DNA from: an uncultured Pseudomonadales bacterium
Lineage (GTDB): Bacteria > Pseudomonadota > Gammaproteobacteria > Pseudomonadales > Azotimanducaceae
Assembly: GCA_958296195.1 (NCBI GenBank)
Contig: OY282455.1
Span: 3,658,001-3,722,000 of the forward strand
Reading direction: 5' to 3'
DNA length: 64,000 bases
Shown piece by piece: positions 5,875-32,339 of the stretch (positions are counted from its first letter, which is position 1; every line of letters begins with the position of its first letter). The position numbers and the translations under genes are program-made. The notes under the pieces were generated by a model. That model was not told where the DNA came from. It worked only from the letters and a program-made list of their open reading frames with translations, and ran no database searches.

Positions 5875-5967
5875 GTCTTCGCTCCACTCCGCCAGGCTGG
5901 GGATGATAGCACCCGATAGTAGGGCGGGACTTCGAGTTCGGGCGCGATGCGGGCGGCCAACCGCTGC

Positions 5968-7005
5968 CTAGAGCATCTCCTCCGCCACCAGCGCCAAGGC
6001 TTCTGGTTGCTGGCTGCCGAGCAGCATGCTGGACACATGGCCCTTGCCCTCAGCCTCCCGCCAGCGCTGCAGGCGGTCGCGGATGCGCTCCTTCGGCCCC
6101 ACCAGGTGGCAGGCGTCGATCAGCTCCGCCGGCACCGCCGCCATGGCTTCGTCCCGCTTGCCGGCAAGATAGAGATCTTGGATTTTGACCGCCGCCTCTT
6201 CAAAGCCAAGGCGCTTGGCGTAGTCGTTGTAGAAGTTCTTGTTGCGGGCGCCCATGCCGCCGATGTAGAGGGCCATGTTGCCGCGCAGAGGCATCATGCA
6301 CTGCTCCACGTCGTCCCCCATCACCACCGTGAGGAAGGGCGCCACGTCAAACTCCGCCAAGGTTTTGCCGCCGGCCTTGGCCAAGCCGCTCCGAATGGGC
6401 TGCTCGAACACATGGAACTGCTCCGGGTCCATCCATATCGGGAAGAAGCCGTCCGCCACCTCCGCCGCCGCTTCCACTCCTCTCGGCGTGATGCTGGCGG
6501 AGTAGATGGGGATGTCCTCTGCGCAGTGCAGGATGCTCTTCAGCGACTTGCCGAGGCCCGTGGCGCCGGCGCCGGCGTAGGGCAGTTGATACATTTCGCC
6601 GTCAAAGGCGGCCGGTGCCTGGCGGGCGAATATCTGCTTCATGATCCGCACGTACTCCTTAAGCCGCGTGACCGGCTTGCCGTAGGGAACGCCGTGCCAG
6701 CCCTCCACCACTTGCGGCCCGGAGGCGCCCAGGCCGCACAGGAAGCGCCCCCCGGAAAGCTCCGCCAAGCTCATGGCCGTCATGGCGGCCATGGCCGGGG
6801 AGCGGGCCGGCATCTGCATGATGGCCGTGCCCACCTTGATCTTCTCGGTTTGGGCAAGAATCCAAGTGGCGGTGGTGACCGCGTCGCCTCCGTAGGCCTC
6901 GGCCGTCCACACGGATTCGTAACCCAGGTTCTCCGCGCCGCGGATGGCCTCCAGCGGCACGTTCAGCTTGCGGCCGCCAAAACCGGCCAGCATTCCCAAC
7001 TTCAT
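5968..7005 (-). CDS. LLM-class flavin-dependent oxidoreductase (luciferase-like, F420/FMN)
   Basis: 345 residues of the luciferase-like TIM-barrel family. The N-terminus MKLGMLAGF leads into the typical E[13 protein letters not shown] stretch. Later parts are [29 protein letters not shown] and a C-terminal [11 protein letters not shown] segment that matches LLM oxidoreductases. The substrate is unknown; it may be a flavin monooxygenase or an F420 dehydrogenase acting in the same pathway as the Rieske protein 93 bp downstream. The ATG at 7005 gives the family N-terminus and has AGGGGAA upstream, while the extra 26 codons before it look non-coding. It is divergent from the plus-strand pair at 7218-8249, with about 210 bp of shared upstream DNA. 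Confidence 0.85.
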
Positions 7006-7217
7006 GGCGTTTCCCCTTCGTTGCTGCACTGCAATGGTCAGACTAAAGTAGCGCCCGGGGCGCCAAGCGGCGCAAGATAGCAACCGTTGGCGATGCTTAC
7101 AACCAGCAAGGCGACGCCTTGAGCCGGCGGTGAGTTGGCGGCGGGTTTACAATCCGGCCCACTTGCTTATCCGCCCTGCGGCCAAGAAACTCGGAACAGG
7201 CGCTTGGGGCCAAGCTG

Positions 7218-7478
7218 ATGGAAGAACAGGAACCGCAAGAGAACGCCACTGCGCAGGAGGACCAGGGCACCGGGCAGGACGTGCCCACCGACCCCCGGGA
7301 CTTCATTGGCGGCGGCGGCCCGAACAACCTGTCCCGCATCATGATCGCCAAAGGCCACGCCCTTGGCGTCGGCATGGGCGCTGCATCCTTCCAGGAGGAG
7401 CAGAGCCGCGCCCAGCAGCGGCGCCTCGGCATCTGGCAAGGCCCCTTTCAACCACCCAGCGCCTGGCGGCGGCGCTGA
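7218..7478 (+). CDS. Small protein with SNase-like C-terminal tail; possibly a gene remnant
   Basis: 86 codons. Residues 1-50 are acidic and low in complexity, ending in a Gly-rich stretch (DFIGGGGPNNLSR). Residues 55-86 (QEEQSRAQQRRLGIWQGPFQ, then a W-R-R-R end) resemble the last helix and tail of thermonuclease (SNase) family proteins, where A-x-x-x-x-R-G-I-W-x-G-x-F precedes a P-x-x-W-R-R end. The catalytic part of SNase is not present upstream. The frame may be the 3' relic of a degraded nuclease gene or a short protein that kept this tail. The ribosome site is weak (GGGG 8 nt before ATG). It ends 21 bp before the DsbA-like gene in the same phase, so the two may be co-transcribed. Confidence 0.35.
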   Translation: MEEQEPQENATAQEDQGTGQDVPTDPRDFIGGGGPNNLSRIMIAKGHALGVGMGAASFQEEQSRAQQRRLGIWQGPFQPPSAWRRR

Positions 7479-7499
7479 ACCGGACAGGACACCAGGCAC

Positions 7500-8249
7500 A
7501 TGGCGAAGAAACATCCCCAAGGCGGCGCCAAGGCCGGCAAGCAGGCCCGGCGGGAGCGCAGAATCAAGACCATTCGCTGGGGCGTTCTCGGCGCCGGCGT
7601 CCTCATCGTCGGCGTCGTCTTGGTTTGGGGGCTGCTCTACAGCACCGGCGTCAGCGAAGGCGGAGGGATCGTCGAGGGGGAACACTACCGAACAGTCGAG
7701 AACCCGCCCCGCCGCCGTCCCGGCCAATCCATAGTGGTGACGGAGTTCTTTTCCTACGGCTGCGTCCACTGCCGCAACTTCGACCCCCTCATTGAGGATT
7801 GGCGGGACGGCTTGGACGAAGGCGTTGTCTTTGAAAGAGCGCCGGTGGCGTTCCTCCCCGAGTGGGCCGTCCTCGGCCAAGCCCACCTCGCGCTGCTCGA
7901 AACGGATGCGCTGGGGGCCAACCACGAACGCATCTTCCGCGCCGTCCACGACAACGGCCGCACCTTCCCAACCGCCAGCCAAATGGCGGACTTCGTGGAC
8001 GGCAACGGCGTCACCCGGCAGGAGTTCCTGGACGCCTACAACTCCCCTTCGGTGCGGCGCACCCTGGCCCGCAACGAGGCGCGGCAGCGCAAGCTGGGCG
8101 TCTCCTCCGTGCCGAGCATAACGGTGGCGGACACCTACGTCCTGAACATGGAGGTCGGCCGCCGCCGCTCCCTTGAGGTGGCGGACGCGCTGGTGGCGCG
8201 GATGCGCGCGGAGGAGGCGCCGGGCGGCTTGGAGGATCCGCCCTCCTGA
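7500..8249 (+). CDS. Membrane-anchored DsbA-like thiol:disulfide oxidoreductase
   Basis: 249 residues: a basic N-terminus (KAGKQARRERRIK), one transmembrane segment at about 27-47, then a periplasmic thioredoxin fold. The active site is C88-V-H-C91 in FFSYGCVHCRNF and the cis-Pro loop is SSVPSITV near residue 203. These mark the DsbA family, which introduces or isomerises disulfide bonds in exported proteins. The membrane anchor in place of a cleaved signal peptide is unlike E. coli DsbA but common in other bacteria. Its stop is 243 bp from the stop of the giant exported protein gene, which is convergent. Whether it serves that protein is unknown, as the Calx-beta part has almost no cysteines. 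Confidence 0.85.
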   Translation: MAKKHPQGGAKAGKQARRERRIKTIRWGVLGAGVLIVGVVLVWGLLYSTGVSEGGGIVEGEHYRTVENPPRRRPGQSIVVTEFFSYGCVHCRNFDPLIEDWRDGLDEGVVFERAPVAFLPEWAVLGQAHLALLETDALGANHERIFRAVHDNGRTFPTASQMADFVDGNGVTRQEFLDAYNSPSVRRTLARNEARQRKLGVSSVPSITVADTYVLNMEVGRRRSLEVADALVARMRAEEAPGGLEDPPS

Positions 8250-8492
8250 GCCACAGGCGCGCACCGGCGGGACGGCGCCCAAACCTCCGCAAGGCAGTCC
8301 GCAAACCCGCGGACGCCGTCGGCCAAGCTGGCCGGGCTTCGCCCGACGGCTGGGTTGCCTCGGCGTCCAGCCAACTCCCTCCGCTGGACGCCGACAGGCC
8401 CCAGCCCGCATGCTGCGCCAAGCCGCCCGGACGCCGGCCGCAGCGCCTTTCGGGGGTGCGCCCCGAGTGCAGTGCCCGGGGCTTGGCTTGGG
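8250..8492. other. Convergent intergenic region, possible structured terminator
   Basis: 243 bp between the stops of the DsbA-like gene (+) and the giant gene (-). A nested inverted repeat spans about 8318-8351: an outer CCGTCGG/CCGACGG pair with an inner CGGGC-TTC-GCCCG hairpin. It could end transcription from either side but lacks a T tract. No other coding signal is convincing here. Confidence 0.3.
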
Positions 8493-11400
8493 CTACCGGC
8501 TTGCCCCGCGCAAGGTTCGCATCCACTCCAGGCGCCATTGGGGGAGGGCGGCGGCGGGGGCGAACTCGACCGTGACGGTGAGGGTGACGGAGGCGGAGAG
8601 GCCGTCGGGGTCGGTCGCGGTGACGGTGACGGCGGCGGTTCCCTCCAGGCCGTCCTCGTTGCCGTCCAGCACCAGCCGGCCGTCGGCGACGCGGGCGGTG
8701 AGCAGGTCCGGCCGGTCGGTTCGGGCCTCGTAGGCCAGCCGGCCGCCGGCCTCGGCGGGGGCGACAAGCCCGTCCAGGGCGAGCGACGCCCGGTCGCCGT
8801 TGGCGGAGAGCGCCGGCGGGGCCGGGGGCTGTTCGGTCGGCCTCGGCGGCGGCTTGAACAGGAGCAGGGGCGGGCCGGCCTGCGGGGCCAGGCCGCGGAA
8901 GCAGGGGGATCGGCCGTCCTGCGCGGCGCCGCAGACGCCCGCCGGCGCGGCCAAGGCGCCGGCCAGGGCCAGGCGGGCCGCCCCCGGGCCGGTGGGCGTG
9001 GCTTGAACCGAAGGGCCGGCGACGGCGCCGGCCGGCACGGACGCCTGCGTTGCGGACAGTTCGGCGCCCGCCGCCAGCAGCGCCGCGGACAGGGGGAAGG
9101 GGGCGCCCTCGGCGACCCGCGCCTCCACCCGCGCCGGTCCGGGCGCCCAGGGCTCGGCGTCCGTCCGCACCAGGCGCATGACCAGCGGGAACGGGGCGCC
9201 GGGGTTGTCCGCAAGGTTCAGCTCCGAGAGGCCGGCGGCGCCGGCGAACAGGCCCTCCGGCAGGGACGCCAGCCGGTTGCCGTCCAGGCGCAGGCGCTCC
9301 AGGGAACCCAGGCCGTCAAGCAGGCCCTCCGGCAGCTCCGCCAGCCGGTTGCGGTGCAGGTGCAGAACCCGCAGCCCGGAAAGCCCCAGGAGGTCCTTCG
9401 GGCGCAGCGCCGCGATCCCCTTCCCGTGCAGGCCCAGGTAGCCCCGGCCCGCCAACTCCGAAGACGTCGGCGCCCAGCAGGCCCGCGGCCCGCGCAGCTC
9501 GTCGCGAACCGCCGGCGAGCGGTCGCAAACGCCCTCCTCAACCGCAAGCGTCGCCTCGGCAAGGCCCACCAGCGCCCAGTCCGCCCCCTCCGGCGGCGCC
9601 GCCAGCGCCACCGTCAGGAACTCCCGGGCCGGCTCGATCTCGCCGTCGTCGCGCACCGCAACCTCAATGAAGGCCTCCGTCCCCCCAGGCGCGAACGCGG
9701 CTGTCCCGCTCATGACCTCCAGGTCGGCGGCATCCGCGTCCGCGGTGTCCGGGTCCCCGTCGGGCCGGGCGACCCAGGAAACGGACATGGCCGCCGACGC
9801 CGGCCGGCTCAGCGTCAGCGGCAGCCGAACCGCGCCGCCCTCCGGCGCCGAGGCCGAGGGCGCCGCGAACGACAGCATCCGCCCCACCGACGCCCGGAGG
9901 CTCAGCTGGGCGCGCAGCCCGCCCCCGTCGGCCACCGTGACCGTCACCGTCGCCAGCCCCGGCGACAGGCCCTCCACCCGCAGCGCGACGTTGCCCTCGA
10001 CCCGCGCCGAGGCCACCTCCGGGGCCGACGACTCGACCGAGTGCGACAGCGGCCCCGTGTCCGCGAACACGCCAGCCAGCCGAAGCTCCGCCGACTCCCC
10101 GACGTCCAGGTCCAGGTCCGGGAGCGAACCCACCACCCGCGGCGGGACGTTGGCGGGCGGCGGCGGGGGCGCCGGGGGCGGCGGCGCCGGCGCCGGCGCG
10201 GGCGACGGCGCCGCGTCGTCGTCCGTGATCGTCCCCGTGCCGCTCGCCGTCGAGACCGCCGCGTTCGCCGCGCCGCTCAGGGCCACCACCACCGTCTCGT
10301 TCGACTCGTCCAGCGTGTCGCCCGTCACCGACACCGCGACGCTCTTCGACGTCTCCCCCGCCGCGAACGTCAGCGTCCCGCCCGTGACCGCCGTGTAGTC
10401 CGTCCCCGACGTGGCCGTGCCCGTCCCGGCGTCGGCCCAGTCCACCGTCACCTCCCGGCTGCTCGCCGGACTCAGCGTCACCGTGAACGTCAGGTCCTTC
10501 GAGCCGCTGTCCCCCTCCGCCACGCTCGGCGAGTCGATCGACAGCGACGGCGCCCCGTCGTCGTCCGTCAGGCTGATCGTGGCTGAGTTCACCGTCAGGC
10601 TGCCTGAGGCGCCGCTTACCGTGACCGTCTCGTCCGTCTCGTCCGCCGCATCGTCCGTCGGCGTCAGCGTGAACGTCCCGGTCCCGCTCGCCGCCCCCGC
10701 CGCAATCTCAATGTCGAAGTCCGACACCGCCGCGAAGTCCACCGCCGTCGCCGCGCCGCCGCCCGCCACGCTCACCGTCACCGTCGTGGCGTCGGCGAAC
10801 CGCGTCGCCCCGTTCACCGTCGCCGTCACCGTGATCAGGGTCGCCCCGTCGGCCTCGCCCACGCTGTTGTCGTCCACCGTCAGCGTGATCGAGGGCGTCG
10901 CGTCGTCGTCCGTGATCGTCCCCGTCCCGCTCGCCGTTGAGATCGCCGCGTTCGCCGCATTGCTCAAGGTCACAACCACGGTCTCGTTCGACTCGTCCAG
11001 CACGTCGCCCGTCACCGACACGTTGAAGGTCCGGCTGGTGTCCCCCGCCGCGAAGGTCAGCGTCCCGCCCGTGATCGCCGTGTAGTCCGTCCCCGACGTG
11101 GCCGTGCCGCCGGTCCCCTCCGCCCAGTCCACCGTCACTTCCTGGCTGCTCGCCGGACTCAGCTTCACCGTGAACGTCAGGTCCTTCGAGCCGCTGTCCC
11201 CCTCCGCCACGCTCGGCGAGTCGATCGACAGCGACGGCGCCCCGTCGTCGTCCGTCAGGCTGATCGTGGCTGAGTTCACCGTCAGGCTGCCTGAGGCGCC
11301 GCTCACCGTGACCGTCTCGTCCGTCTCGTCCGCCGCATCGTCCGTCGGCGTCAGCGTGAACGTCCCGGTCCCGCTCGCCGCCCCCGCCGCAATCTCAATG

Positions 11401-14400
11401 TCGAAGTCCGACACCGCCGCGAAGTCCACCGCCGTCGCCGTGCCGCCGCCCGCCACGCTCACCGTCACCGTCGTGGCGGCGGCGAACCGCGTCGCCCCGT
11501 CCACCGTCGCCGTCACCGTGATCGTCGTCGCCCCGTCGGCCTCGCCCACGCTGTTGTCATCCACCGTCAGCGTGATCGAGGGCGTCGCGTCGTCGTCCGT
11601 GATCGTCCCCGTCCCGCTCGCCGTTGAGATCGCCGCGTTCGCCGCATTGCTCAAGGTCACAACCACGGTCTCGTTCGACTCGTCCAGCACGTCGCCGGTC
11701 ACCGACACGTTGAAGGTCCGGCTGGTGTCCCCCGCCGCGAACGTCAGCGTCCCGCCCGTGACCGCCGTGTAGTCCGTCCCCGACGTGGCCGTGCCGCTCC
11801 CGGCGTCGGCGTAGTCCACCGTCACCTCCTGGGCGCTCGCGGGGCTCAGCGTCACCGTGAACGTCAGGTTCGCCGAGCCGCTGTCCCCCTCCGCCACGCT
11901 CGCCGAGGCGATCGACAGCGACGGCGCCCCGTCGTCGTCCGTCAGGCTGATCGTCGCCGAACTCACCGTCAGGCTGCCCGACGTCCCGCTCACCGTGACC
12001 GTCTCGTCGGTCTCGTCCGCCGCATCGTCCGTCGGCGTCAGCGTGAACGTCCCGGTCCCGCTCGCCGCCCCCGCCGCAATCTCAATGTCGAAGTCCGACA
12101 CCGCCGCGAAGTCCACCGCCGTCGCCGCGCCGCCGCCCGCCACGCTCACCGTCACCGTCGTGGCGTCGGCGAACCGCGTCGCCCCGTTCACCGTCGCCGT
12201 CACCGTGATCGTCGTCGCCCCGTCGGCCTCGCCCACGCTGCTCTCATCCACCGTCAGCGTGATCGAGGGCGTCGCGTCGTCGTCCGTGATCGTCCCCGTC
12301 CCGCTCGCCGTTGAGATCGCCGCGTTCGCCGCATTGCTCAAGGTCACAACCACCGTCTCGTTCGACTCGTCCAGCACGTCGCCCGTCACCGACACCGCGA
12401 CGCTCTTCGACGTCTCCCCCGCCGCGAACGTCAGCGTCCCGCCCGTGACCGCCGTGTAGTCCGTCCCCGACGTGGCCGTGCCGCTCCCGGCGTCGGCGTA
12501 GTCCACCGTCACCTCCTGGGCGCTCGCAGGGCTCAGCGTCACCGTGAACGTCAGGTTCGCCGAGCCGCTGTCCCCCTCCGCCACGCTCGCCGAGGCGATC
12601 GACAGCGACGGCGCGCCGTCGTCGTCCGTCAGGCGGATCGTCGCCGAACTCACCGTCAGGCTGCCCGACGTCCCGCTCACCGTGACCGTCTCGTCGGTCT
12701 CGTCCGCCGCGTCGTCCGTCGGCGTCAGCGTGAACGTCCCGGTCCCGCTCGCCGCCCCCGCCGCAATCTCAATGTCGAAGTCCGACACCGCCGCGAAGTC
12801 CACCGCCGTCGCCGTGCCGCCGCCCGCCACGCTCACCGTCACCGTCGTGGTGTCGGCGAACCGCGTCGCCCCGTCCACCGTCGCCGTCACCGTGATCAGG
12901 GTCGCCCCGTCGGCCTCGCCCACGCTGTTGTCGTCCACCGTCAGCGTGATCGACGACGGCGCCCCGTCGTCGTCCGCCAGCGTGATCGTCGCCGAATTCA
13001 CCGTCAGGCTGCCTGAGGCGCCGCTGACCGTGATCGTCTCGTTGGTCTCGTCGGTCGCATCGACCGTCGGCGTCAGCGTGAACGTCCCGGTCCCGCTCGC
13101 CGCCCCCGCCGCAATCTCAATGTCGAAGTCCGACACCGCCGCGAAGTCCACCGCCCCCGCCGCGCCGCCGCCCGCCACGCTCACCGTCACCGTCGTGGCG
13201 GCGGCGAACCGCGTCGCCCCGTCCACCGTCGCCGTCACCGTGATCGTCGTCGCCCCGTCGCCCTCGCCCACGCTGTTGTCGTCCACCGTCAGCGTGATCG
13301 ACGTCGGCGCGGCGTCGTCGTCCGTCAGGCTGATCGTCGCCGAGTTCACCGTCAGCCCGCCCGACGTCCCGCTCACCGTGATCGTCTCGTTGGTCTCGTC
13401 GGTCGCATCGACCGTCGGCGTCAGCGTGAACGTCCCGGTGCCGCTCGCCGCGTCCGCCGCAATCGTAATATCGAAGTCCGCCACCGCCGCGAAGTCCACC
13501 GCCGTCGCCGTGCCGCCGCCCGCCACGCTCACCGTCACCGTCGTGGCGTCGGCGAACCGCGTCGCCCCGTTCACCGTCGCCGTCACCGTGATCAGGGTCG
13601 CCCCGTCGGCCTCGCCCACGCTGTTGTCGTCCACCGTCAGCGTGATCGACGTCGGCGCCGCGTCATTGTCGGTGATCGTCCCCGTGCCGCTCGCCGTCGA
13701 GATCGCCGCGTTCGTCGGGCTGCCCAGAGTCACCACGACAGTCTCGTTCGACTCGGCCCGGACGTCGCCCGTCACCGCCACGTCGAAGGTCTGGCTGGTC
13801 GTCCCCGCCGCAAAGGTCAGCGTCCCGCCCGTGATGGCCGTGTAGTCCGTCCCCGACGTGGCCGTGCCGGTCCCGGCGTCAGCGTAGGCCACCGTCACCT
13901 GCTGGACGCTCGCCGCGCTCAACGTCACCGTGAACGTCAGGTCCTTCGTGCCGCTGTCGCCCTCCGTCACGCCCGGCGAGTCGATCGACAGCGTCGGCCC
14001 GTCGTCGTCCGTGATCGTCCCCGTGCCGGCGCCCGTCGCGATCGTCGCGTTCGTCGGGCTGCCCAGGGTTACCACGATGGTCTCGTTCGCCTCGTCGGTC
14101 GTGTCGCCCGTCACCGCCACGTTGAAGGTCTGGCTGGTCGTCCCCGCCGGGAAGGTCAACGTCCCGTCCGTGATCGCCGTGTAGTCCGTCCCCGACGTGG
14201 CCGTGCCGGTCTCGGCGTCGGTGTAGCCCACCGTCACCTGCCGGACGCTCGCCGCGCTCAGCGTCGCCGTGAACGTCAGGTTCGTCGAGCCGCTGTCACC
14301 CTCCGCCACGCTCGGCGAGTCGATCGACACCGTCGGCCCGTCGTCGTCCGTGATCGTCCCCGTGCCGTTCGCCGTCGAAATGGTCGCGTTCGTCGGGCTG

Positions 14401-17400
14401 CTCAGGGTCACCACGACGGTCTCGTTCAACTCGTCGGTCGTGTCGCCCGTCACCGCCACGTTGAAGGTCTGGCTGGTCGTCCCCGCCGGGAAGGTCAGCG
14501 TGCCGCCGGTGATCGCCGTGTAGTCGGTTCCGGACGTGGCCGTGCCGCTCCCGGCGTCCGCGTAGTCCACCGTCACCTGCTGGACGCTCGTCGCGCTCAA
14601 CGTCGCCGTGAACGTCAGGGTCGTCGAGCCGCTGTCGCCCTCCGCCACGCTCGGCGAGTCGATCGACACCGTCGGCCCGTCGTCGTCCGTGATCGTCCCC
14701 GTGCCGGTGCCCGTCGCGATCGTCGCGTTCGTCGGGCTGCCCAGGGTCACCACGACGGTCTCGTCCACCTCGTCGGTCGTGTCGCCGGTCACCGCCACGG
14801 TGAAGGTCCGGCTGGTGTCCCCCGCCGCAAAGGTCAGCGTCCCGCCCGTGATGGCCGTGTAGTCGGTCCCCGACGTGGCCGTGCCGCCGGCCCCCTCCGC
14901 CCAGGCCACCGTCACCGGCTGGGCGCTCGCCGCGCTCAACGTCGCCGTGAACGTCAGGTCCGTCGAGCCGCTGTCGCCCTCCGCCACGCTCGGCGAGTCG
15001 ATCGACACCGTCGGCCCGTCGTCGTCCGTCAGGCTGATCGTCGCCGAGTTCACCGTCAGGCTGCCTGAGGCGCCGCTGACCGTGATCGTCTCGTCGGTCT
15101 CATCCGCCGCATCGTCCGTCGGCGTCAGCGTGAAGGTGCCGGTGGCGCTCGCCGCGCCTGCCGGGATCTCGATGTTGAAGTCCGGCACCGCCGCGAAGTC
15201 CACCGCCGTCGCCGTGCCGCTGCCCGCCACGCTCACCGTCACCGTCGTGGCGTCGGCGAACCGCGTCGCCCCGTTCACCGTCGCCGTCACCGTGATCAGG
15301 GTCGCCCCGTCGGCCTCGCCCACGCTGTTGTCATCCACCGTCAAGGCAATCGACGTCGGCGCGCCGTCGTCGTCCGTCAGGCTGATCGTCGCCGAACTCA
15401 CCGTCAGGCTGCCCGACGTCCCGCTCACCGTGACCGTCTCGTCGGTCTCGTCCGCCGCGTCGTCCGTCGGCGTCAGCGTGAACGTCCCGGTCCCGCTCGC
15501 CGCCCCCGCCGCAATCTCAATGTCGAAGTTCGACACCGCCGCGAAGTCCACCGCCGTCGCCGTGCCGCTGCCCGCCACGCTCACCGTCACCGTCGTGGCG
15601 TCGGCGAACCGGGTCGCGCCGTCCACCGTCGCCGTCACCGTGATCAGGGTCGCCCCGTCGGCCTCGCCCACGCTGTTGTCGTCCACCGTCAGCGTGATCG
15701 ACGTCGGCGCGGCGTCGTTGTCGGTGATCGTCCCCGTGCCGGCGCCCGTCGCGATCGTCGCGTTCGTCGGACTGCTCAACGACGCCACGACAGTCTCGTT
15801 CGACTCGGCCAGGACGTCGCCCGTCACCGCCACGGTGAAGGTCTGGCTGGTCGTCCCCGCCGGGAAGGTCAGCGTGCCGGCGGTGATGGCCGTGTAGTCG
15901 GTCCCCGACGTGGCCGTGCCGGTCCCGGCGTCGGCGTAGGCCACCGTCACCGGCTGGACGCTCGCCGCGCTCAAGGTCGCCGTGAACGTCAGGTTCGTCG
16001 AGCCGCTGTCACCCTCCGTCACGCTCGGCGAGTTGATCGACAGCGCCGGCCCGTCGTCGTCCGTGATCGTCCCCGTGCCGGCGCCCGTCGCGATCGTCGC
16101 GTTCGTCGGGCTGCTCAGGGTCACCACGACGGTCTCGTCCACCTCGTCGGTCGTGTCGCCGGTCACCGCCACGGTGAAGGTCTGGCTAAGCGTCCCCGCC
16201 GCAAAGGTCAGCGTCCCGCCCGTGACGGCCGTGTAGTCGGTCCCCGACGTGGCCGTGCCGCCGGCCCCCTCCGCCCAGGCCACCGTCACCGGCTGGACGC
16301 TCGCCGCGCTCAACGTCGCCGTGAACGTCAGGTTCGTCGAGCCGCTGTCCCCCTCCGTCACGCTCGGCGAGTTGATCGACAGCGTCGGCCCGTCGTCGTC
16401 CGTGATCGTCCCCGTGCCGGCGCCCGTCGCGATCGTCGCGTTCGTCGGGCTGCCCAGGGTCACCACGACGGTCTCGTTCAACTCGTCGGTCGTGTCGCCG
16501 GTCACCGCCACGTTGAAGGTCTGGCTGGTTGTCCCCGCCGTGAAGGTCAGCGTCCCGCCCGTGATGGTCGTGTAGTCGGTCCCGGAAGTCGCGGTGCCAC
16601 CCGTCCCCTCGGCCCAGGCCACCGTCACCTGCTGGACGCTCGCCGCGCTCAACGTCGCCGTGAACGTCAGGTCCGTCGAGCCGCTGTCGCCCTCCGTCAC
16701 GCTCGGCGAGTCGATCGACACCGTCGGCCCGTCGTCGTCCGTCAGCGTGATCGTCGCCGAGTTCACCGTCAGGCTGCCTGAGGCGCCGCTGACCGTGATC
16801 GTCTCGTCGGTCTCGTCGGTTGTATCGACCGTCGGCGTCAGCGTGAAGGTGCCGGTGGCGCTCGCCGCGCCTGCCGGGATCTCGATGTTGAAGTTCGGCA
16901 CCGCCGCAAAGTCCACCGCCGTCGCCGTGCCGCTGCCCGCCACGCTCACCGTCACCGTCGTGGCGGCGGCGAACCGGGTCGTGCCGTCCACCGTCGCCGT
17001 CACCGTGATCGTCGTCGCCCCGTCGCCCTCGCCCACGCGGTTGTCATCCACTGTCAAGGTGATCGACGTCGGCGCGCCGTCGTCGTCCGTCAGCGTGATC
17101 GTCGCCGAGTTCACCGTCAGCCCGCCCGACGTCCCGCTCACCGTGATCGTCTCGTCGGTCTCGTCCGCCGCGTCGTCCGTCGGCGTCAGCGTGAACGTCC
17201 CGGTCCGGCTCGCCGCCCCCGCCCCAATCGTAATGTCGAAGTCCGTCACCGCCGCGAAGTCCACCGCCGTCGCCGTGCCGCCGCCCGCCACGCTCACCGT
17301 CACCGTCGTGGCCGCGCCGAACCGGGTCGCGCCGTCCACCGTCGCCGTCACCGTGATCGTCGTCGCCCCGTCGCCCTCGCCCACGCTGCCCTTATCCACC

Positions 17401-20400
17401 GTCAAGGTGATCGAGGGCGTCGCGTCGTCGTCCGTGATCGTCCCCGTGCCGGTGCCCGCCGCGCTTGACACGGCCGCGTTCGTCGGGCTGCTCAGGGTCA
17501 CAACCACCGTCTCGTTCGACTCGTCCAGCGTGTCGCCCGTCACCGACACCGCGACGCTCTTCGACGTGTCCCCCGCCGCGAACGTCAGCGTCCCGCCCGT
17601 GACCGCCGTGTAGTCCGTCCCCGACGTGGCCGTGCCGCCGGTCCCCTCCGCCCAGTCCACCGTCACCTGCCGGCCGCTGGCCGGACTCAGGGTCACCGTG
17701 AACGTCAGGTTCGCCGAGCCGCTGTCCCCCTCCGTCACGCTCGGTGAGTTGATCGACAGCGTCGGCGTCGCATCATCGTCCGTCAGGCTGATCGTCGCCG
17801 AATTCACCGTCAGGCTGCCCGAGACGCCGCTCACCGTCACCGTCTCGTCCGTCTCGTCCGCCGTGTCGGCCGTCGGCGTCAGCGTGAACGTCCCGGTCCG
17901 GCTCGCCGCCCCCGCCGGGATCTCGATGTCGAAGTCCCCCACCGCCGCGAAGTCCACCGCCGACGCCGTGCCGCCGCCCGCCACGCTCACCGTCACCGTC
18001 GTGGCCGAACCGAACCGGGTCGCGCCGTTCACCGTCGCCGTCACCGTGATCGTGGTCGCCCCGTCGCCCTCGGCCACGCTGTTGTCGTCCACCGTCAGCG
18101 TGATCGACGTCGGCGTCGCATCGTTGTCCGTGATCGTCCCCGTCCCGCTCGCCGTCGCGATCGTCGCGTTCGCCGCGTTGCTCAGGGTCACCACCACCGT
18201 CTCGCTCGACTCGTCCAGCGTGTCGCCCGTCACCGACACCGCGACGCTTTTCGACGTCTCCCCCGCCGCGAACGTCAGCGTCCCGCCCGTGACCGCCGTG
18301 TAGTCCGTCCCCGACGTGGCCGTGCCGCTCCCGGCGTCGGCGTAGTCCACCGTCACCTCCTGGGCGCTCGCCGGACTCAGGGTCACCGTGAACGTCAGGT
18401 CCTTCGAGCCGCTGTCCCCCTCCGCCACGCTCGGCGAGTCGATGGAGACGGTCACGCCGTCGTCGTTGACGATCGTCCCCGTGCCGGTCGCCGTCGCGAT
18501 CGTCGCGTTCGCCGCGTCGCTCAGGGTCACCGCCACCGTCTCGTTCGGCTCCTCCGTGGTGTCGCCCATCACCGACACGTCGAAGGTTTGGCTGGTGGTG
18601 CCCGCCGCGAAGGTCAGCGTGCCGCCGGCGATGGCCGTGTAGTCCGTCTCCGAAGTGGCCGTGCCGGTCCCGGCGTCCGCGTAGTCCACCGTCACCCTCT
18701 GGGCGCTGGCCTTGCTCAGGGTCGCCGTGAACGTCAGGGTCGCCGAGCCGCCGTCACCCTCCGTCACGCGCGGCGAGTCGATGGAGACGGTCACGCCGTC
18801 GTCGTTGACGATCGTCCCCGTCCCCGCGGCTGTCGAGATCGTGGCGTTTGTCGCGTTGCTCAGGGTCACCACGACGGTCTCGTTCGGCTCCTCCGTGGTG
18901 TCGCCCATCACCGACACGTCGAAGGTTTGGCTGGTGGCGCCCGCCGCGAAGGTCAGCGTGCCGCCGGTGACGGCCCTGTAGTCCGTCCCGGATGTGGCCG
19001 TGCCGGTCCCGGCGTCCGCGTAGTCCACCGTCACCCGCTCGGTGCTGGCCTTGCTCAGGGTCGCCGTGAACGTCAGGGTCGCCGAGCCGCTGTCCCCCTC
19101 CGCCACGCTCGCCGAGGCGATCGACAGCGTCGGCGCATCGTCGTCGTCCGTGATCGTCCCCGTGCCGCTCGCCGTCGAGATCGCCGCGTTCGCCGCGTTG
19201 CTCAGGGTCACCACCACCGTCTCGTTCGACTCGTCCAGCGTGTCGCCCGTCACCGACACCGCGACGCTCTTCGACGTGTCCCCCGCCGCGAACGTCAGCG
19301 TCCCGCCCGTGACCGCCGTGTAGTCCGTCCCCGACGTGGCCGTGCCGCCGGTCCCCTCCGCCCAGTCCACCGTCACCTCCCGGCCGCTGGCCGGACTCAG
19401 GGTCACCGTGAACGTCAGGTTCGCCGAGCCGCTGTCCCCCTCCGTCACGCTCGCCGAGGCGATGGAGAGCGTCGGCGCATCGTCGTCGTCCGTCAGGCTG
19501 ATCGTCGCCGAATTCACCGTCAGGCTGCCCGAGACGCCGCTCACCGTCACCGTCTCGTCCGCCTCGTCCGCCGTGTCGGCCGTCGGCGTCAGCGTGAACG
19601 TCCCGGTCCGGCTCGCCGCCCCCGCCGGGATCTCGATGTCGAAGTCCCCCACCGCCGCGAAGTCCACCGCCGACGCCGTGCCGCTGCCCGCCACGCTCAC
19701 CGTCACCGTCGTGGCCGAACCGAACCGGGTCGCGCCGTCCACCGCGGCGGTCACCGTGATCGTCGTCGCCCCGTCGCCCTCGCCCACGCTGCCCTCATCC
19801 ACCGTCAAGGTGATCGAGGGCGTCGCGTCGTCGTCCGTGATCGTCCCCGTGCCGGTGCCCGCCGTGCTTGACACGGCCGCGTTCGTCGGGCTGCTCAGGG
19901 TCACCACCACCGTCTCGTTCGACTCGTCCAGCGTGTCGCCCAGCGCCGCCACGTTGAAGGTCCGGCTGGTCGTCCCCGCCGTGAACGTCAGCGTCCCGCC
20001 CGTGATCGCCGTGTAGTCCGTCCCCGACGTGGCCGTGCCGCCGGTCCCCTCCGCCCAGTCCACCGTCACCTGCCGGCCGCTCGCCGCGCCCAGCGTCACC
20101 GTGAACGTCAGGTTCGCCGTGCCGCTGTCCCCCTCCGCCACGCTCGGCGAGTCGATCGACAGCGACGGCGCATCGTCGTCGTCCGTGATGGTCAGCTCCA
20201 CGCCGTCCGAGTCCTGCGTGATCCCCTGGCCGTTGGCCGCCACGCCCGTCACCGTCACCGTGCGGTCCGCCTCGTCCCTGCCGTTGTCCACCGCCGTGAT
20301 CGTCACCGTCCCGCTCGACGTCGTCGCCCCCGCCGCCACCGTCAGCGTCGTCCCGCTCAGCGTCGTCCCCGCCGGCACTGTCAGCGTCACCGTCGTCGCC

Positions 20401-23400
20401 GCGCTCGAGGCGTGGCTCAGCGACGCCGACACCGTGGTCGAGTTGCCCGCCCCGCTCTCGTTGACGGAGCCCACCCCCACCGCCAGCGCCACCGTCGGCG
20501 CCGCGTCGTCGTCCGTGATCGTCCCCGTCCCGGTTCCCGCACTCGCGGAGACCGTCGCGTTCGTCGCGCTGCCCAGGCTCACCTTCACCGTCTCGTCCGG
20601 CTCGTCCGTCGCGTCGCCCGTCACCGACACCGCGACGGTCTTCGACGTCTCCCCCGCCGCGAACGTCAGCGTCCCCGCCGTCAGCGCCGTGTAGTCCGTC
20701 CCCGAGGTCGCCGTGCCTCCCGCCGCCCCGGCGTAGCCCACCGTCACCTGCTGCGTGCTCGCCGGGGCCAGCGTCACCGTGAAGTCCAGGTTCGCCGTGT
20801 CGCCGGCGGCCCCCTCCGCCACGCTCGGCGAGCTGATCGACAGCGTCGGCGCCCCGTCGTCGTCGATGATCGTCCCCGTCCCCGTCCCCGTCCCGAGCGC
20901 CGCGTTCGTCGAGCCGCTCAGCGCAAGCTTCACCGTCTCGTCCTGCTCGTCCGTCGTGTCCCCGGTCACCGACACCCGCACCGTCTTGCTGACGTCCCCC
21001 GCGGCGAAGGTCAGGGTCCCCGACGCCAACGCCACATAGTCCGTCCCCGAGGTCGCCGTGCCTCCCGCCGCCTCGGCGTAGCTCACCGTCACCTCCCTGC
21101 CGCTGGCCGGGGTCAGCGACACCGTGAAGTCCAGGTTCGCCGGGCCGCTGTTCCCTGCTGCGCCATCTCTGTAGCGGATGCGCCAGTTGTTGGTGGCGGT
21201 CTCCTTGACGCCGATGTCGTCCGTGCCGTTGCCGTCGAAGTCCCCGGTGAAGACCGTGCCGGCGTTGATTGCCCAACTGGTGCTGGTTTGAGCCTGGAAG
21301 TTGCCCCTGGTGCTGGTGGCGTAGCGGAAGAGCCAGTTGTCGGAGGCGCTCTCCTTGACGCCGATGTCGTCCCTGCCGTCGCCGTTGAAGTCCCCGCTGA
21401 GGACCGTGCCGGCGTTGATTGCCCAACTGATGCTGGTTTGGCTGGCTTGCCCCCCGAACTGGCCCCTGGTGCTGGTGGCGTAGCGGAAGAACCAGTTGTT
21501 GGTGGCGGTCTCCTTGACGCCGATGTCGTCCTTGCCGTCGCCGTCGAAGTCCCCGGTGACGACCGGGACACCGGGGGCGGGTGGCCAACCGTAGTTGGTT
21601 TCATTCCCGAACTGGCCCCTGGTGCTGGTGGCGTAGCGGATGCGCCAGTTGCCGGAGTTATCCTTGACGCCGATGTCGTCCTTGCCGTCGCCGTCGAAGT
21701 CCCCGGTGATGATCGTGCCGGCGCTGATTGGCCAAGCGTAGGTGGTTTCACTCCCGAACTGGCCCCTGGTGCTGGTGGCGTAGCGGATGCGCCAGAGGCC
21801 GGAGCCGGAGCCGCCCGCCTTGACGCCGATGTCGTCCTTGCCGTCGCCGTCGAAGTCCCCGGTGATGACCGTGCCGCTGGGGGCGGCCCAAATGTAAGTG
21901 GTGTCAGTTAGGTCGTTCCCCTCCGTCACGCTCGGCGAGTCGATCGACAGCGACGGCAGCGCGTCGTCGTCCGTGATCGTCCCCGTCCCGGTGGGCGTCG
22001 AGATCGTCGCGTTCGCCGCGCTGCTCAGGGTCACCACGACGGTCTCGTTCGCCTCGTCCAGCGCGTCGCCCGTCACCGACACATCAAAGGTCTGTCTGGT
22101 CATCCCCACCGCGAAGGTCAGCGTACCGCCGGTGATGGCCGTGTAGTCCGTCCCCGAAATGGCCGTTCCGGTCCCGGCGTCGGCGTAGTCCACCGTCACC
22201 TCCTTGCCGCTCGCCGCGCTCAGCGTCGCCGTGAACGTCAGGTCCGCCGTGTCGCCGGCGGCCCCCTCCGCCACGCTCGGCGAGTCGATCGACAGCGACG
22301 GCGCGTCGTCGTCGTCCGTGATCGTCCCCGTCCCGGTCGCTGTGCCGAGCGCCGCGTTCGTCGGGCCGCTCAGCGTCAGCCTCACCGTCTCGTTCGGCTC
22401 GTCCGTCCCGTCGCCCGTCACCGACACCGTGACGGTCTTCGACGTCTCCCCCGCCGCGAACGTCAGCGTCCCGCCCGTGACGGCCGCGTAGTCCGTCCCC
22501 GAGGTCGCCGTGCCCCCGTCCGTGCCGTCCGCCGCCCAGGCCACCGTCACCTGCTGCACGCTCGCCGGGACCAGCGTCACCGTGAAGACCAGGTTCGCCG
22601 AGCCGCTGTCCCCCTCGTTCACGCTCGGCGAGTCGATCGACAGCGACGGCGCCCCGTCGTCGTCGATAATCGTCCCGGTCCCCGTCGCCGTCCCGAGCGT
22701 GGCGTTCGCCGCGTTGCTCAGCGTCGCAACCACCGTCTCGTCCGTCTCGTCCGTCCCGTCGCCCGTCACCGAGACATCGAAGGTCTGGCTCGTCGTCCCC
22801 GCCGCGAACGTCAGTGTGCCGCCGGTGATCGCCGTGTAGTCGGTCCCGGAAGTGGCCGTGCCGCCCGGCCCCTCCGCCCAGTCCACCGTCACCTCCTTGC
22901 CGCTCGCCGCCGACAGCGTCACCGTGAACGTCAGGGACGCCGTGTCGCCGGCGGCCCCCTCAATCACGCTCGGAGAGTCGATCGACAGCGTCGGCGACGC
23001 GTCGTCGTCCGTGATCGTCCCCGTCCCCGTTCCCGTCCCGAGCGTGGCGTTCGCCGCGTTGCTCAGCGTCGCAACCACCGTCTCGTCCGTCTCGTCCGTC
23101 CCGTCGCCCGTCACCGAGACGTCGAAGGCCTGGCTCGTCGTCCCCGCCGCGAACGTCAGCGTCCCGCCGGTGATGGCCGTGTAGTCGGTCCCGGAAGTGG
23201 CCGTGCCGCCCGGCCCCTCCGCCCAGTCCACCGTCACCTCCCTGTCGCTGGCCGCCGACAGCGTCACCGTGAACGTCAGGGACGCCGTGTCGCCGGCGGC
23301 CCCCTCGATCACGCTCGGCGAGTTGACCGACAGCGACGGCGATGTGTCGTCGTCAATGATCGTCCCCGTCCCGAGCGCCGCGTTCGTCGGGCCGCTCAGC

Positions 23401-26400
23401 GCAACCTTCACCGTCTCGTCCTGCTCGTCCGTCGTGTCCCCGGTCACCGACACCCGCACCGTCTTGCTGACGTCCCCCGCGGCGAAGGTCAGGGTCCCCG
23501 ACGCCAGCGCTACATAGTCCGTCCCCGAAGTCGCCGTCCCGGTCCCGGCGTCGGCGTAGCTTACCGTCACCTCCTTCTCGCTCGCCGCGCTCAGGTCCAC
23601 CGTGAAGTCCAGTTCCGGCACGCCGCTGTTCCCTGCGCCATCTCTGTAGCGGATGCGCCAGTTGTCGGTGGCGGTCTCCTTGACGCCGATGTCGTCCGTG
23701 CCGTTGCCGTCGAAGTCCCCGGTGAGGACCGTGCCGGCGTTGATTGCCCAACTGGCGCTGGTTTGAGCCTCGAACTGGCCCCTGGTGCTGGTGGCGTAGC
23801 GGAAGAGCCAGTTGTCGGAGGCGCTCTCCTTGACGCCGATGTCGTCCCTGCCGTCGCCGTTGAAGTCCCCGCTGAGGACCGTGCCGGCGTTGATTGCCCA
23901 ACTGGTGCTGGTTTCCCCCCCGAACTGGCCCCTGGTGCTGGTGGCGTAGCGGAAGAACCAGTTGTTGGTGGCGGTCTCCTTGACGCCGATGTCGTCCTTG
24001 CCGTCGCTGTCGAAGTCCCCGGTGACGACCGGGGCACCGGGGGCGGCTGGCCAACGATGGTTGGTTTGATTCCCGAACTGGCCCCTGGTGCTGGTGGCGT
24101 AGCGGATGTACCAGTTGCCGGAGTTATCCTTGACGCCGATGTCGTCCTTGCCGTCGCCGTCGAAGTCCCCCGTGATGATCGTGCCGGCGCCGGTTGGCCA
24201 AGTGTAGGTGGTTTCATTCCCGAACTGGCCCCTGGTGTTGGTGGCGTAGCGGATGCGCCAGGTGCCGCTGTTCTCCTTGATGCCGATGTCGTCCTTGCCG
24301 TCGCCGTCGAAGTCCCCGGTGATGACCGTGCCGCTGGGGGCGGCCCAAATGTAAGTGGTGTCAGTTAGGTTGTCCCCCTCCGTCACGCTCGGCGAGTCGA
24401 TCGACAGCGACGGCGCCCCGTCGTCGTCGATGATCATCCCCGTCCCCGTGGCCGTCGAGATCGTCGCGTTCGCCGCGCCGCTCAGGGTCACCACGACGGT
24501 CTCGTCCGGTTCGTCCGTCGCGTCCCCGGTCACCGAAACCCGCACCGTCTTCAAGGTCTCCCCAACTGCGAACGTCAGCGTCCCGGCGCCCAGCGCCTCG
24601 TAGTCCGTCACCAAGGTCGCCGTGCCTCCCGACCCCTCGGCGTAGCTCACCGTCACCTGCTGCGCACTTGCCGGGGCCAGCGTCACCGTGAAGACCAGGT
24701 TCGCCGAGCCGCTGTCCCCCTCGTTCACGCTCGGCGAGTTGATCGACAGCGACGACGCCCCGTCGTCGTCGATGATCATCCCCGTCCCCGTCCCCGTCCC
24801 GACCGCCGCGTTCGTCAGGTCGCTCAGCGCAAGCCTCACCGTCTCGTCCGCCTCGTCCGTCGCGTCCCCGGTCACCGACACCGTGATCGTCTTGCTGACG
24901 TCCCCCGCGGCGAAGGTCAGGGTCCCCGACGTCAGCGCCGCGTAGTCCGTCCCCGAAGTCGCCGTCCCGGTCCCGGTGTCGGCGTAGCCCACCGTCACCT
25001 CCCTGCCGCTGGCCGGGGCCAGCGTCACCGTGAAGACCAGGTTCGCCGAGCCGCTGTCCCCCTCGTTCACGCTCGGCGAATTGATCGACAGCGACGGCGC
25101 CCCGTCGTCGTCCGTGATCGTCCCCGTCCCGGTTCCCGAGGTCGCAGAGACCGTCGCGTTCGTCGGGCTGCTCAGCGCAACCTTCACCGTCTCGTCCGCC
25201 TCGTCCGCCGCGTCACCCGTCACCGACACCGTGATCGTCTTGCTGACGTCCCCCGCGGCGAAGGTCAGGGTCCCCGACGTCAGCGCCGTGTAGTCCGTCC
25301 CCGAAGTCGCCGTGCCCCCCGTCGCCTCGGCGTAGCCCACCGTCACCCGCTTGCCACTGACCGCCGACAGCGTCACCGTGAAGTCCAAGTTCGCCGAGCC
25401 GCTGTCCCCCTCCGCCACGCTCGGCGAGTCGATCGAAACCGTCGGCGCCCCGTCGTCGTCGACGATCGTCCCCGTCCCGACCGCCGCGTTCGCCGCGCCG
25501 CTCAGCGCAAGCCTCACCGTCTCGTCCAGCTCGTCCGTCCCGTCACCCTTCACCGACACCCGCACCGTCTTGCTGGTCTCCCCGACCGCGAACGTCAGCG
25601 TCCCCGCCGAAACCGCCGCGTAGTCCGTCCCCGAGGTCGCCGTGCCCGTCCCGGCGTCGGCGTAGTCCACCGTCACCTCCCTGCCGCTGACCGCCGACAG
25701 CGTCACCGTGAAGTCCAGGTGCGCCGCGCCGCTGTCCCCCTCGTTCACGCTCGGCGAATCGATCGACAGCGACGGCACCCCGTCGTCGTCCGTGATCGTC
25801 CCCGTCCCCGTGGCCGTCGAGATCGTCGCGTTCGCCGCGCCGCTCAGGGTCACCACGACGGTCTCGTCCGGTTCGTCCGTCGCGTCCCCGGTCACCGAAA
25901 CCCGCACCGTCCTCGAGGTCTCCCCGGCCGCGAACGTCAGCGTCCCCGACACCAGCGCCGTGTAGTCCGTTCCCGAGGCCGCCGTGCCCGCCGCCTCGGC
26001 GTAGTCCACCGTCACCTGCTGCGCGCTCGCCGGGGCCAGCGTCACCGTGAAGTCCAGGTTCGCCGAGCCGCTGTCCCCCTCGTTCACGCTCGGCGAGTTG
26101 ATCGACAGCGACGGCGCCCCGTCGTCGTCGATGATCATCCCCGTCCCCGTGGCCGTCGAGATCGTCGCGTTCGCCGCGCCGCTCAGGGTCACCACGACGG
26201 TCTCGTCCGGTTCGTCCGTCGCGTCCCCGGTCACCGAAACCCGCACCGTCCTCGAGGTCTCCCCGGCCGCGAACGTCAGCGCCCCCGACACCAGCGCCGT
26301 GTAGTCCGTCCCCGGGGTCGCCGTGCGCCCCACCGCCTCGGCGTAGTTCACCGTCACCTGCTTGCCGCTGGCCGGGGCCAGCGTCACCGTGAAGTCCAGG

Positions 26401-29400
26401 TTCGCCGCGCCGCTGTCCCCCTCGTTCACGCTCGGCGAATCGATCGACAGCGACGGCGCCCCGTCGTCGTCCGTGATCGTCCCCGTCCCCGTGGCCGTCG
26501 AGATCGTCGCGTTCGCCGCGCTGCTCAGGGTCACCACGACGGTCTCGTCCGGCTCGTCCGTCGCGTCCCCGATCACCGACACGTCGAAGGTCTGGCTGGT
26601 GGTGCCCACCGCGAAGGTCAGCGTCCCGCCGGTGACGGCCGTGTAGTCGGTCCCGGAAGCGGCCGTGCCGCCGGTCCCCTCCGCCCAGTCCACCGTCACT
26701 TCCTTCCCGCTCTCCGCGCTCAGGGTGACCTTGAACGTCAGGTTCCTCGAACCGCTGTACCCCTCCGTCACGCTCGGCGAGTCGATCGACAGCGACGGCG
26801 CCACGTCGTCGTCGACGATCGTCCCCGTCCCCGTCCCCGTCCCGATCGCCGCGTTCACCGGACCGCTCAGCTCAACCTTCACCGTCTCGTGCGGCTCGTC
26901 CGTCGCGTCCCCGGTCACCAACACCCGCACCGTCTTGCTGGTCTCCCCAACCGCGAACGTCAGCGTCCCCGCCGAAACCGCCGCGTAGTCCGTCCCGCCG
27001 CCCGTCGCCGTGCCCGTCCCGGCGTCGGCGTAGCTCACCGTCACCTCCTGCTCGCTCGCCGGGGACAGGGTGACCGTGAAGTCCAGGTCCGCCGTGCCGG
27101 TGTCCCCCTCCACCACGCTCGGCGAGTCGATCGACACGGCGGTCGGTCTCGTCACAGCCACCGTGTAGGTGCGGCTTGCGGCCCCGTTCGGCGCCGTCAC
27201 CTTGACCGTGACGGTGGTGACCCCGCCATTGAGCTCCACTTGGTGGCCAACGGCGTCGGCGTCGGCGTCCGCCGGAGCAACGGAGACCCTTGCGCCGCTT
27301 TGCGCGGCCGTCGCCGTCACGGTCGTCCTGGCCGTGGAGCTGCTCACAGCCGCCGCGTAGCTCGTGGCGGCGGCGGAGAAGGCGGGGGACAGCGGGGACG
27401 ACAGGCCCGAAAGGGCCAAGGCGGACAGGCTCGCCTTCTGGAGGTTGAACTGCGCGGTGACGTCCGCGTCGTTCGCGTCGTCTCGGTCATGGTTCAGGAC
27501 CGGATACTGCGCCGAGGTGCCGAAGTCCCAGACATCGTCCACCTCGTCCCAAGCCGCGTAGATGCTGGGCGGGTTGGTGGTGGAGCTGCCGTACTCGGTG
27601 GGCGACTTCAGGGCGCTGCCGGTCTTGCCGACGGGGAGTGGGGTGAACCCGCTGGGAAACCGGCCCGGACTCGTGGTGCCCGTGGTTTCCGTGTCCCAGT
27701 AGCTGTGCTCGACGACCGGGGACTTCCCGGCGAAAACGAACGAAGCCCCAACCAGCCCGCCGTAGTTCGCGTTCGGGCTGGACTGGTTCGTGCCGCCCAG
27801 GGCGTAGCTCGCCCGCACCTCCCCCCCTTGGCTTACGCCCACCAAGCCGCCGAACCCAAGATTTGAGCCCTCACGGCCGGTGTTGCCGTTCACGACAACC
27901 CCCGCGTAGCTGGACTTGACGACGCCGAAGTGCAGCCCAACCAAGCCGCCCATGTTCCCAGCTCCAGAAATCCGTCCAACGGCGTAGCTGGCGGACACTT
28001 CGGCGTCGCGGTCGGCTGCGCCGCCCCCAAGGTTTCTGCCAACCACCCCCACAAGGGAGCCGCCGGTGAAGTGCGCACCGAACCGGACGTCCACGCCAAC
28101 CAGGCCGACGTCGGCAATCCGACCGCCCCCGGCCAACTGGGCGAACAATCCCCCGAAGGACTGGGTCGCCACGATGTGCAGGTTGGACAGCGTCCTGCCG
28201 TTGCCCTTGAAGGTTGCGGTGAAGGGCGAGTAGTCGGCGGTGCCCGCGCCGTGACGGCCGATGGGCAGCCAGCCGGCGCCGGCGTTCCAGTAAAGGTCGT
28301 CGGTCCGGTCGCCGGACGTCCCCGTGTCGAAGTCCAGGTCCGCGTCCAGCTCGTAGCCGACGCAGACCGGAACCTTGGGGGTGCTCGGGTCGCCGTCGGC
28401 GTCCGTCAGGGGACAGCCGGCGCCGGCGGCTGAAGGCGCCGGATGGGGGAAGGCGAGGTGCCAAGCGTCGGCGTGGTCTAGGGAGTCGGGCGCGCCGTCG
28501 CCGTTCAGGTCCCAGCGGACGGCGTTCAACTGCGCCAACGAGGCCACCTCGATCAGGCCGTCGTCATCCGAGTCGTGGTCCCTGGGCGTGTTCGGCCAAG
28601 CCGCAACTCGGCTCGCGGCGCCCTTTCCGCCATTCCGCCCCTTGGCGTTCACCGCGCGCAACTCGAAGGCGTACCCGCTTCCGTTGGCCAGGCTCGGCGC
28701 TCGATGCCCCACCGTGTCCTTGTCGCTGTTCGCAATTGCCGCCCAAGAGTTCCAGGCCGCGCCTCCCCGCCTCCAGCGCAGCTCGTAGCCCGTGATCGTG
28801 CCGTCGCCCGGATCGCTCCAGGACAGATCGACCAGGCCGTCGCCCGCGGCCGCGGCCAGACCCGAAGGCGCCGCCGGCGCCGGCTCGTCGACCGCCGTCA
28901 CTGGGACGGCCGCGGTGCTGTGACTCAAACTGCCCGAATGGGCCGTGGGCTTCACCCTCACGGTAAAGGACCGGTCGGCGTCGAAGTCGGACCCGTCGTG
29001 GGACAGCGTCAGCTTCGCCGAACCGCTCGAGTCCGCAACTCCCGAAACGCCCAGGCCCGGAAACGTCCCAACCAGTTCGAAGTCCCCCGCCTGGAACCGC
29101 GAGAAGGTGACGCCGCTCGGCAGCGTCACGGTCAGCGTCGCGCCGTTCAGGTTCGTCTCCGTCAGCGGCGACGGGCTCGCCGTGACCGTCGCCGGTGCGG
29201 AAACGGTGATCCTGAACGTCAGGCTGGCGCGGTCGGTGTTGTTCACGTTCGCGTCCGAGTCCGCCGCGTGGATGGCGACATTGAACACGCCGGTCGCCGT
29301 CGGCGCGCCGCAAACCGTCCGCGCCGCCATGCAGACGCCCGCGCCGTCGGCGTCGAACGACAGCCCCGTCGGCAGCCCGTCCGCCGCGTAGGTGACGGCG

Positions 29401-32339: not shown

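Follow-up and report, generated by a model that had tools for sequence, protein, structure and literature searches.

The locus described here raises the question of what a single gene of 23.8 kb may encode in a bacterium, and by which route a product of this size could leave the cell. The gene lies in a stretch of 64,000 nucleotides (hereafter the window; positions 3,658,001-3,722,000 of the source genome, which is a single contig of 4,311,735 bp (4.31 Mb) and 98% complete). It occupies positions 8493..32339 of the window on the minus strand, as do all of its features given below, begins with ATG and runs through 7,948 codons, the frame and its translation being free of internal stops, as a preliminary description of this DNA had stated. 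The GC content at codon positions 1, 2 and 3 is 0.60, 0.60 and 0.94 (GC3 0.936); together with the divergence by codon position and the acidic columns of the repeats described below, this confirms that the frame and its domain build are real and beyond chance. The gene is best read, with a probability of roughly 0.55, as encoding a Sec-exported, calcium-stiffened filamentous adhesin with a C-terminal sorting or anchoring end, the 3' module of the gene being interchangeable.

The first 54 residues or so (32178..32339) resemble a signal peptide, in agreement with the preliminary description; read by eye from the translation, they comprise a long charged n-region and then a hydrophobic stretch ending in ...AVAQ. 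Two blocks that follow had been described as FN3/GLUG, and only the first half of this label can be kept. Both FN3 domains exceed the Pfam fn3 cut-off of 25 bits (30654..30893 with 49.1 bits and 28632..28871 with 28.9 bits), whereas GLUG is sub-threshold in block 2 (E 0.95, 10.5 vs 20.5 bits) and has no match in block 1 at E up to 10. A Cadherin-like beta-sandwich domain (27144..27425, residues 1639-1732, 52.4 bits for Pfam Cadherin-like) precedes the repeat array.

The array consists of Calx-beta units with acidic linkers (10215..27146), recognised by splitting at the linkers, by Pfam and by solved relatives. Counting by linkers gives 45 units, the approximate number proposed before, of which 43 are plain and two are split by FG-GAP cassettes; Pfam PF03160 finds 15 and 17 individually significant stretches with 517.6 and 580.8 bits against a cut-off of 27. 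Twelve of the 43 plain units belong to a second type. Conservation of acidic residues is seen at ten columns, each of them in 37 to 43 of the plain units; two of these columns hold E in every one of the 43, and the three linker positions hold D in 40 or 41. The solved relatives are the calcium-binding domains of sodium/calcium exchangers (10 distinct sequences, E <= 0.001). The units of the present protein may likewise bind calcium, through those conserved acidic residues that we take to be the ligands.

The divergence of the units bears on the selection that had been postulated as strong. In the 88 closest pairs codon positions 1, 2 and 3 differ by 0.091, 0.058 and 0.108, position 2 being the least changed. 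The median dN/dS is 0.71 for type 1 (463 pairs), 0.47 for type 2 (63 pairs) and about 0.90 for all 877 usable pairs, estimates that are limited by the constraint which GC3 and codon bias place on synonymous change. Medians of 0.47-0.90 point to selection on the units that is real but of moderate strength; the postulate is upheld as to the presence of selection and not as to its strength. The nearest relative of a unit is found most often at an offset of 2, 1 or 5 units (10, 9 and 8 of 43), and 2.1 kb of the array repeats itself at 94.6% identity with an offset of 687 bp, equal to two units, which fits growth of the array by unequal exchange of multi-unit blocks.

The two FG-GAP cassettes, also foreseen in the preliminary description, are inserted into this array. 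The first (23622..24371, Pfam FG-GAP_3) is nested within a Calx-beta unit after the motif SVTEGD and the second (21144..21914, likewise found by Pfam) at the same point of another unit; each contains five units of about 50 aa, and the cassettes share 93.4% DNA identity. Just upstream of the start codon there is a remnant of an FG-GAP unit (32363..32481) that is 91% identical to the last cassette unit and stands in a different frame. All eight FG-GAP_3 Pfam matches in the genome lie inside this gene. The predicted structure of the cassette is of low confidence (pLDDT 44.2) and unusable.

The protein ends in a module of 540 aa (8496..10115), defined by a family alignment and composed of an Ig-like domain, a degenerate Calx-beta domain, an LRR segment, a further Ig-like domain and a tail. 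The LRR segment, whose best LRR_8 stretch lies at 9270..9437, scores 44.1 bits in Pfam against 27, and the Ig-like beta domains are sub-cut-off in Pfam and supported by the family alignment, so both the LRR and the C-terminal beta domains reported earlier are retained. The structure predicted for the module is of low confidence (pLDDT 56.7). The same module is common to the present gene, two small genes of the source genome and seven giant genes of a same-genus genome (G001), to which its identity is 78-81%. It occurs in 15 of 200 genomes and in 3 of the 37 genera of the family (E <= 1e-40), and genera g13 and g43 have frames of 3,533-5,695 aa that it matches as well. In three genomes (G005, G072 and G139) it is not placed at the protein end and in a fourth (G050) the frame ends short of the last Ig domain; the tail is absent in all four. 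An orphan frame of 118 aa in G001 corresponds to the last part of an LRR-type end.

The tail itself, FAPAAALPQWRLEWMRTLRGASR (8496..8564), is of an LRGWR type in which, by comparison of tails, the WR is conserved. In the source genome the last Ig-like domain and the WR tail also form the C-terminus of two trypsins and an M9 collagenase, as well as of a glycosidase-like protein, a protease of the M12 type and a protein of 503 aa, and the combination is found on proteins in genera g13 and g43. Among 183 loci, WR stands within 30 residues of the Ig domain in 40 of 44 terminal domains (at most 60 residues between domain end and stop) vs 3 of 105 internal ones (Fisher p 5e-28, with kinship left out of account); matches with iE above 1e-6 and five running off a locus or contig end were left out of this count, which may merge true paralogs sharing domain and tail. 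The figures for clusters at 60% identity, unaffected by such merging, are 21 of 24 for terminal and 3 of 73 for internal Ig domains; the tail and Ig models were built from C-termini seen to carry the tail and hence are not blind, the tail having been removed before the Ig-only model was made. Three of the four terminal domains without WR keep the W as LRGWL or LRPWL and one has neither. A set of 13 terminal Ig domains outside the model, picked by hand with near copies of model members left out and possibly holding some orthologs of members, has WR in nine, LRGWL/LRPWL in three and neither in one. In the source genome 9 of 20 Ig matches are terminal and WR is present in all nine. Because the same Ig type is internal 105 times with WR in just three, the tail goes with the protein end and not with the fold alone.

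Within the order, the model of Ig domain plus tail matches 4 of 194 genomes at E <= 1e-10, all of them in the family; two of these, of genus g14, match the Ig part only, as none of their listed matches extends past position 96 of the 111 in the model. NCBIfam tag models gave no match to the tail in seven proteins, six of them tailed, at E up to 1, and sub-cut-off matches (SVAGG, choice_anch_T, MXAN_2561 and two M36 families) lay away from the tails. A narrow literature query, in which most terms were required together, returned no C-terminal tryptophan sorting signal. Inspection of the tails by eye found no cysteine or membrane helix as in MYXO-CTERM. Two of the Trp-Arg-tailed proteins, the glycosidase-like protein and the M9 collagenase, are tandem neighbours (G000 C1:833335-838646). 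An internal LRGWR exception in G089 (C1:4903501-4907000) is followed by an S41 peptidase domain and may offer a lead to a tail-processing enzyme. The Trp-Arg tail may have a role in sorting, as judged from these sequence patterns.

The gene is not alone in its genome. Together with four paralogs (A-D) it makes up five giants of about 113 kb, or about 2.6% of the genome, with frames of 6,651 aa (A), 7,745 aa (B), 1,921 + 5,420 aa (C, frame-broken) and 8,132 aa (D). The break in giant C (G000 C1:2515338-2536663) is either genuine or a sequencing error. Seven giants of 3,747, 3,778, 4,209, 4,877, 5,007, 5,070 and 11,836 aa take up about 3.0% of G001, and G091, from another genus of the same family, has frames of 20,170 and 9,066 aa which both end in a barrel-like domain. 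The earlier view that proteins this large are rare does not hold within this clade, where giants number five here and seven in G001, with more in two further genera. Among 100 genomes of the family, 20 have Calx-beta domains at E <= 1e-13, and so do 12 of the 37 genera, in many cases within shorter frames. The array of the 11,836-aa giant (C1:2907703-2925858) is a long, nearly uniform tandem repeat, with 14 Calx-beta matches of equal score every 1,368-1,371 bp among the matches listed. The 20,170-aa frame (G091 C1:3696266-3756775, minus strand) is unbroken, holds 133 Calx-beta-type linkers by pattern count (111 of them 'DDD') and ends in a barrel of the A-D type (iE 7.8e-243).

Signal-like N-termini are also read on the paralogs and relatives of the gene. 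The two small genes of the source genome that carry the LRR/Ig module are a frame of 927 aa (T), with ends of the same kind and zero Calx-beta linkers, and one of 1,110 aa (S) with two linkers. As T keeps the same ends with no Calx-beta linker between them, it suggests that the ends are constant and the stalk length is variable. The gene is probably one of a family of giant, repeat-built surface proteins, which are probably calcium-stiffened.

The N-terminus of paralogs A-D is signal-like, and at the other end they carry a barrel-like domain of 514-530 aa, for which Pfam gave zero matches of its own. Homologs of this domain were found in four genomes (G004, G006, G007 and G008); one of six, that of G007, passes PF03797 (autotransporter beta-domain) with 27.4 vs 26 bits, and five of six have no match. 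The G007 homolog matches the profile of the A-D-type barrel with E 5.8e-48. A profile of ten domains showed no clear relative in the PDB, the best being an RTX protein at E 0.047. By their barrel-like end, and by the single homolog just over PF03797, A-D are possibly autotransporter-like. They would share with type V autotransporters (PF03797) the signal-like start and the C-terminal barrel-like domain, and the passengers of the barrel-type giants would be Calx-beta stalks of up to about 19,600 aa in G091; unlike these autotransporters, the present gene has no barrel. In the giant-gene regions searched, flanks included, the barrel profile matches just A-D and one remnant in G001. ORFs 7167-8411 (minus strand) and 5947-7080 (plus strand) were considered as a barrel or partner gene behind the giant gene and rejected; both are without Pfam match and look antisense. 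The preliminary statement that no known outer-membrane export signal is visible therefore stands for known families, with no barrel, no RTX among the Pfam matches and no tag model found.

On the other side of the giant gene a sugar-use cluster (32499-57163) borders it, with GH95-like, GH95 and GH4 genes, an SSF transporter, a TonB receptor, DGOK, a dehydratase, two GAPDH-type genes, a PEP carboxylase, a GntR regulator and an aldolase. ORF 57478-60942 encodes a POR/DUF6537 protein, and copies of its 3' end at 95-98% identity are present at 60043-60947 and 61693-62597 and past the right edge of the window (G000 C1:3723124-3723600); the frame 61735-62592 retains the DUF6537 domain.

Several observations suggest that giant genes trade their 3' ends. 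The identity between A and D rises from 86-92% over the repeats to 98.8-100% in four successive 500-column windows holding the barrel, and the next window, which begins about 115 bp before the stop, falls back to 84.8%. In G001 an LRR-type giant is followed, after 167 bp, by the start of a barrel remnant (positions 454-519 of 521, E 1.9e-12). The small gene S is chimeric, with a barrel-type start (92.8% identity to A and 88.2% to D over 515 bp) and an LRR-type end, and one G001 giant likewise combines a barrel-type start, by its signal sequence, with an LRR-type end. Little weight is given to a supposed 18-aa tail scar that follows the G001 giant g1a, its matches being weak (iE about 7e-4 and 9e-4). 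From the A/D identity step, the barrel remnant behind an LRR-type giant and the chimeric genes, it appears that 3' modules have been exchanged between giant genes. A more far-reaching proposal may be attached to this, one that is somewhat less likely than not and is held tentatively. According to it, the LRGWR tail and its Ig domain would act, in one Pseudomonadales family, as a C-terminal sorting signal not described before and served by a machinery of its own, and the giants of this clade would switch their export ends (autotransporter barrel vs tail) by swapping a 3' cassette, one adhesive stalk thus being displayed in two ways.

If the gene does encode a filamentous adhesin, a Sec-type signal would bring the protein into the periplasm and the N-terminal FN3/cadherin-like region would probably be the contact end. 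The 45 Calx-beta domains and their acidic linkers would form a long stalk, stiffened by calcium and changed in length by unequal exchange, on which the two FG-GAP inserts would sit as side modules. Export or anchoring would fall to the C-terminal module of LRR, Ig-like domains and Trp-Arg tail, which would hold the protein after its passage through the outer membrane. This module and the autotransporter-like barrel would be two interchangeable 3' ends, moved between giants by recombination. For the outer-membrane step the type II system would be the leading candidate. A secretin search of the source genome found GspD over the cut-off, PilQ and a third secretin (284063) below the GspD cut-off, and type II secretion is possible as GspD is over its cut-off. 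No ligand domain was identified in the protein. The adhesive role suggested earlier can be kept in so far as the signal-like start, the Calx-beta stalk, the FN3 and LRR domains and the functional analogy to BapP can fairly be read as those of a large extracellular protein of adhesin type.

BapP of Pseudoalteromonas tunicata is the nearest tested analogy. The available text of PMC12153261 describes it as a calcium-influenced adhesin required for normal biofilm, which measures 1,600 aa and contains, besides an N-terminal five-bladed propeller, seven Calx-beta-like repeats. As described there, this marine gammaproteobacterial protein resembles ours in its Sec-type signal, tandem Calx-beta domains, further Ig-like domains and predicted calcium sites in the linkers; in contrast to it, the present protein has 7,948 aa, FG-GAP nested in Calx-beta units and an LRR/Ig/Trp-Arg end. 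The five FG-GAP units per cassette may be likened to the five blades of the BapP propeller from its description, the cassette model being unusable. The second comparison concerns Giant1-5 of Apilactobacillus kunkeei, which in the available text of PMC12863079 are five giant extracellular proteins per genome, of 3,000-8,000 aa. They have in common with the giants described here the number of five per genome, a Sec-type signal, a long repeat stalk, a conserved C-terminus and recombination, and differ as proteins of a Gram-positive organism with largely helical repeats in Giant1-3, DUF5776 C-termini and one gene cluster, whereas the present giants are built of Calx-beta repeats, their genes lie dispersed, and their C-terminus is one of two alternative modules. 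The Trp-Arg tail recalls GlyGly-CTERM and MYXO-CTERM, which are short C-terminal tags on surface proteins; a serine protease is among the GlyGly-CTERM proteins, and the available text of PMC13393428 and PMC11980579 describes type II secretion as involved or as predicted. In MYXO-CTERM, as described in the latter, an invariant cysteine is combined with a membrane helix and an Arg-rich end, whereas the present tail has a WR core and, by inspection, none of these.

Other explanations of these data must be weighed. The tail could serve only to cap the last Ig domain structurally, without taking part in sorting, the protein being released via the type II system or staying periplasmic. We regard this as possible though rather doubtful. 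In its favour, WR goes with a single type of Ig domain, the tail lacks a helix or cysteine of the MYXO-CTERM kind by inspection, and no tag model matches it; against it, that Ig type stands internally 105 times with WR in only 3, and the domains upstream of it are as diverse as those of a trypsin, an M9 collagenase, an M12 protease and a glycosidase-like protein. It could also be supposed that the gene is a decaying former autotransporter gene, in which the LRR module replaced the barrel so that the product is no longer surface-bound; the barrel is indeed kept in four of the five giants of the source genome and missing from this one, a barrel remnant persists behind a G001 giant of LRR type, and giant C is frame-broken. 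Decay is nevertheless unlikely in view of the intact 23.8-kb frame, the conservation of the LRR-type end in seven G001 giants, its matches to frames of 3,533-5,695 aa in g13 and g43, the sharing of the tail with secreted enzymes and the lack of any barrel remnant around the gene.

Type I secretion as an RTX adhesin of the LapA/SiiE kind is quite improbable. No RTX repeats are among the Pfam matches of the protein and its N-terminus is signal-like, although the latter is not decisive, as BapP shows: it is described in the available text of PMC12153261 as potentially type I-exported despite its Sec-type signal, and a Calx-beta domain is present in LapA according to that of PMC7616799. As the BapP authors consider type I secretion in that text (PMC12153261), the route keeps a small probability for the present protein. 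The least credible alternative, with very little probability, is that the frame is partly a product of assembling repeat DNA and that the true gene is broken or has a different repeat number. The DNA is highly repetitive and sister gene C is frame-broken in the same assembly, but no two plain units are identical (the closest pair shares 97.7% of its DNA), the whole assembly is in one contig, and comparable unbroken giants are present in other genomes.

The source genome devotes about 2.6% of its length to a multi-gene system of what would be giant, length-variable surface filaments which appear to exchange their export ends. The 20,170-aa barrel-ended frame would probe the upper length of autotransporter passengers. 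If the Trp-Arg tail is a sorting signal, it would define a new Gram-negative protein-sorting route, and exported proteins of these uncultured bacteria would become recognisable from sequence.
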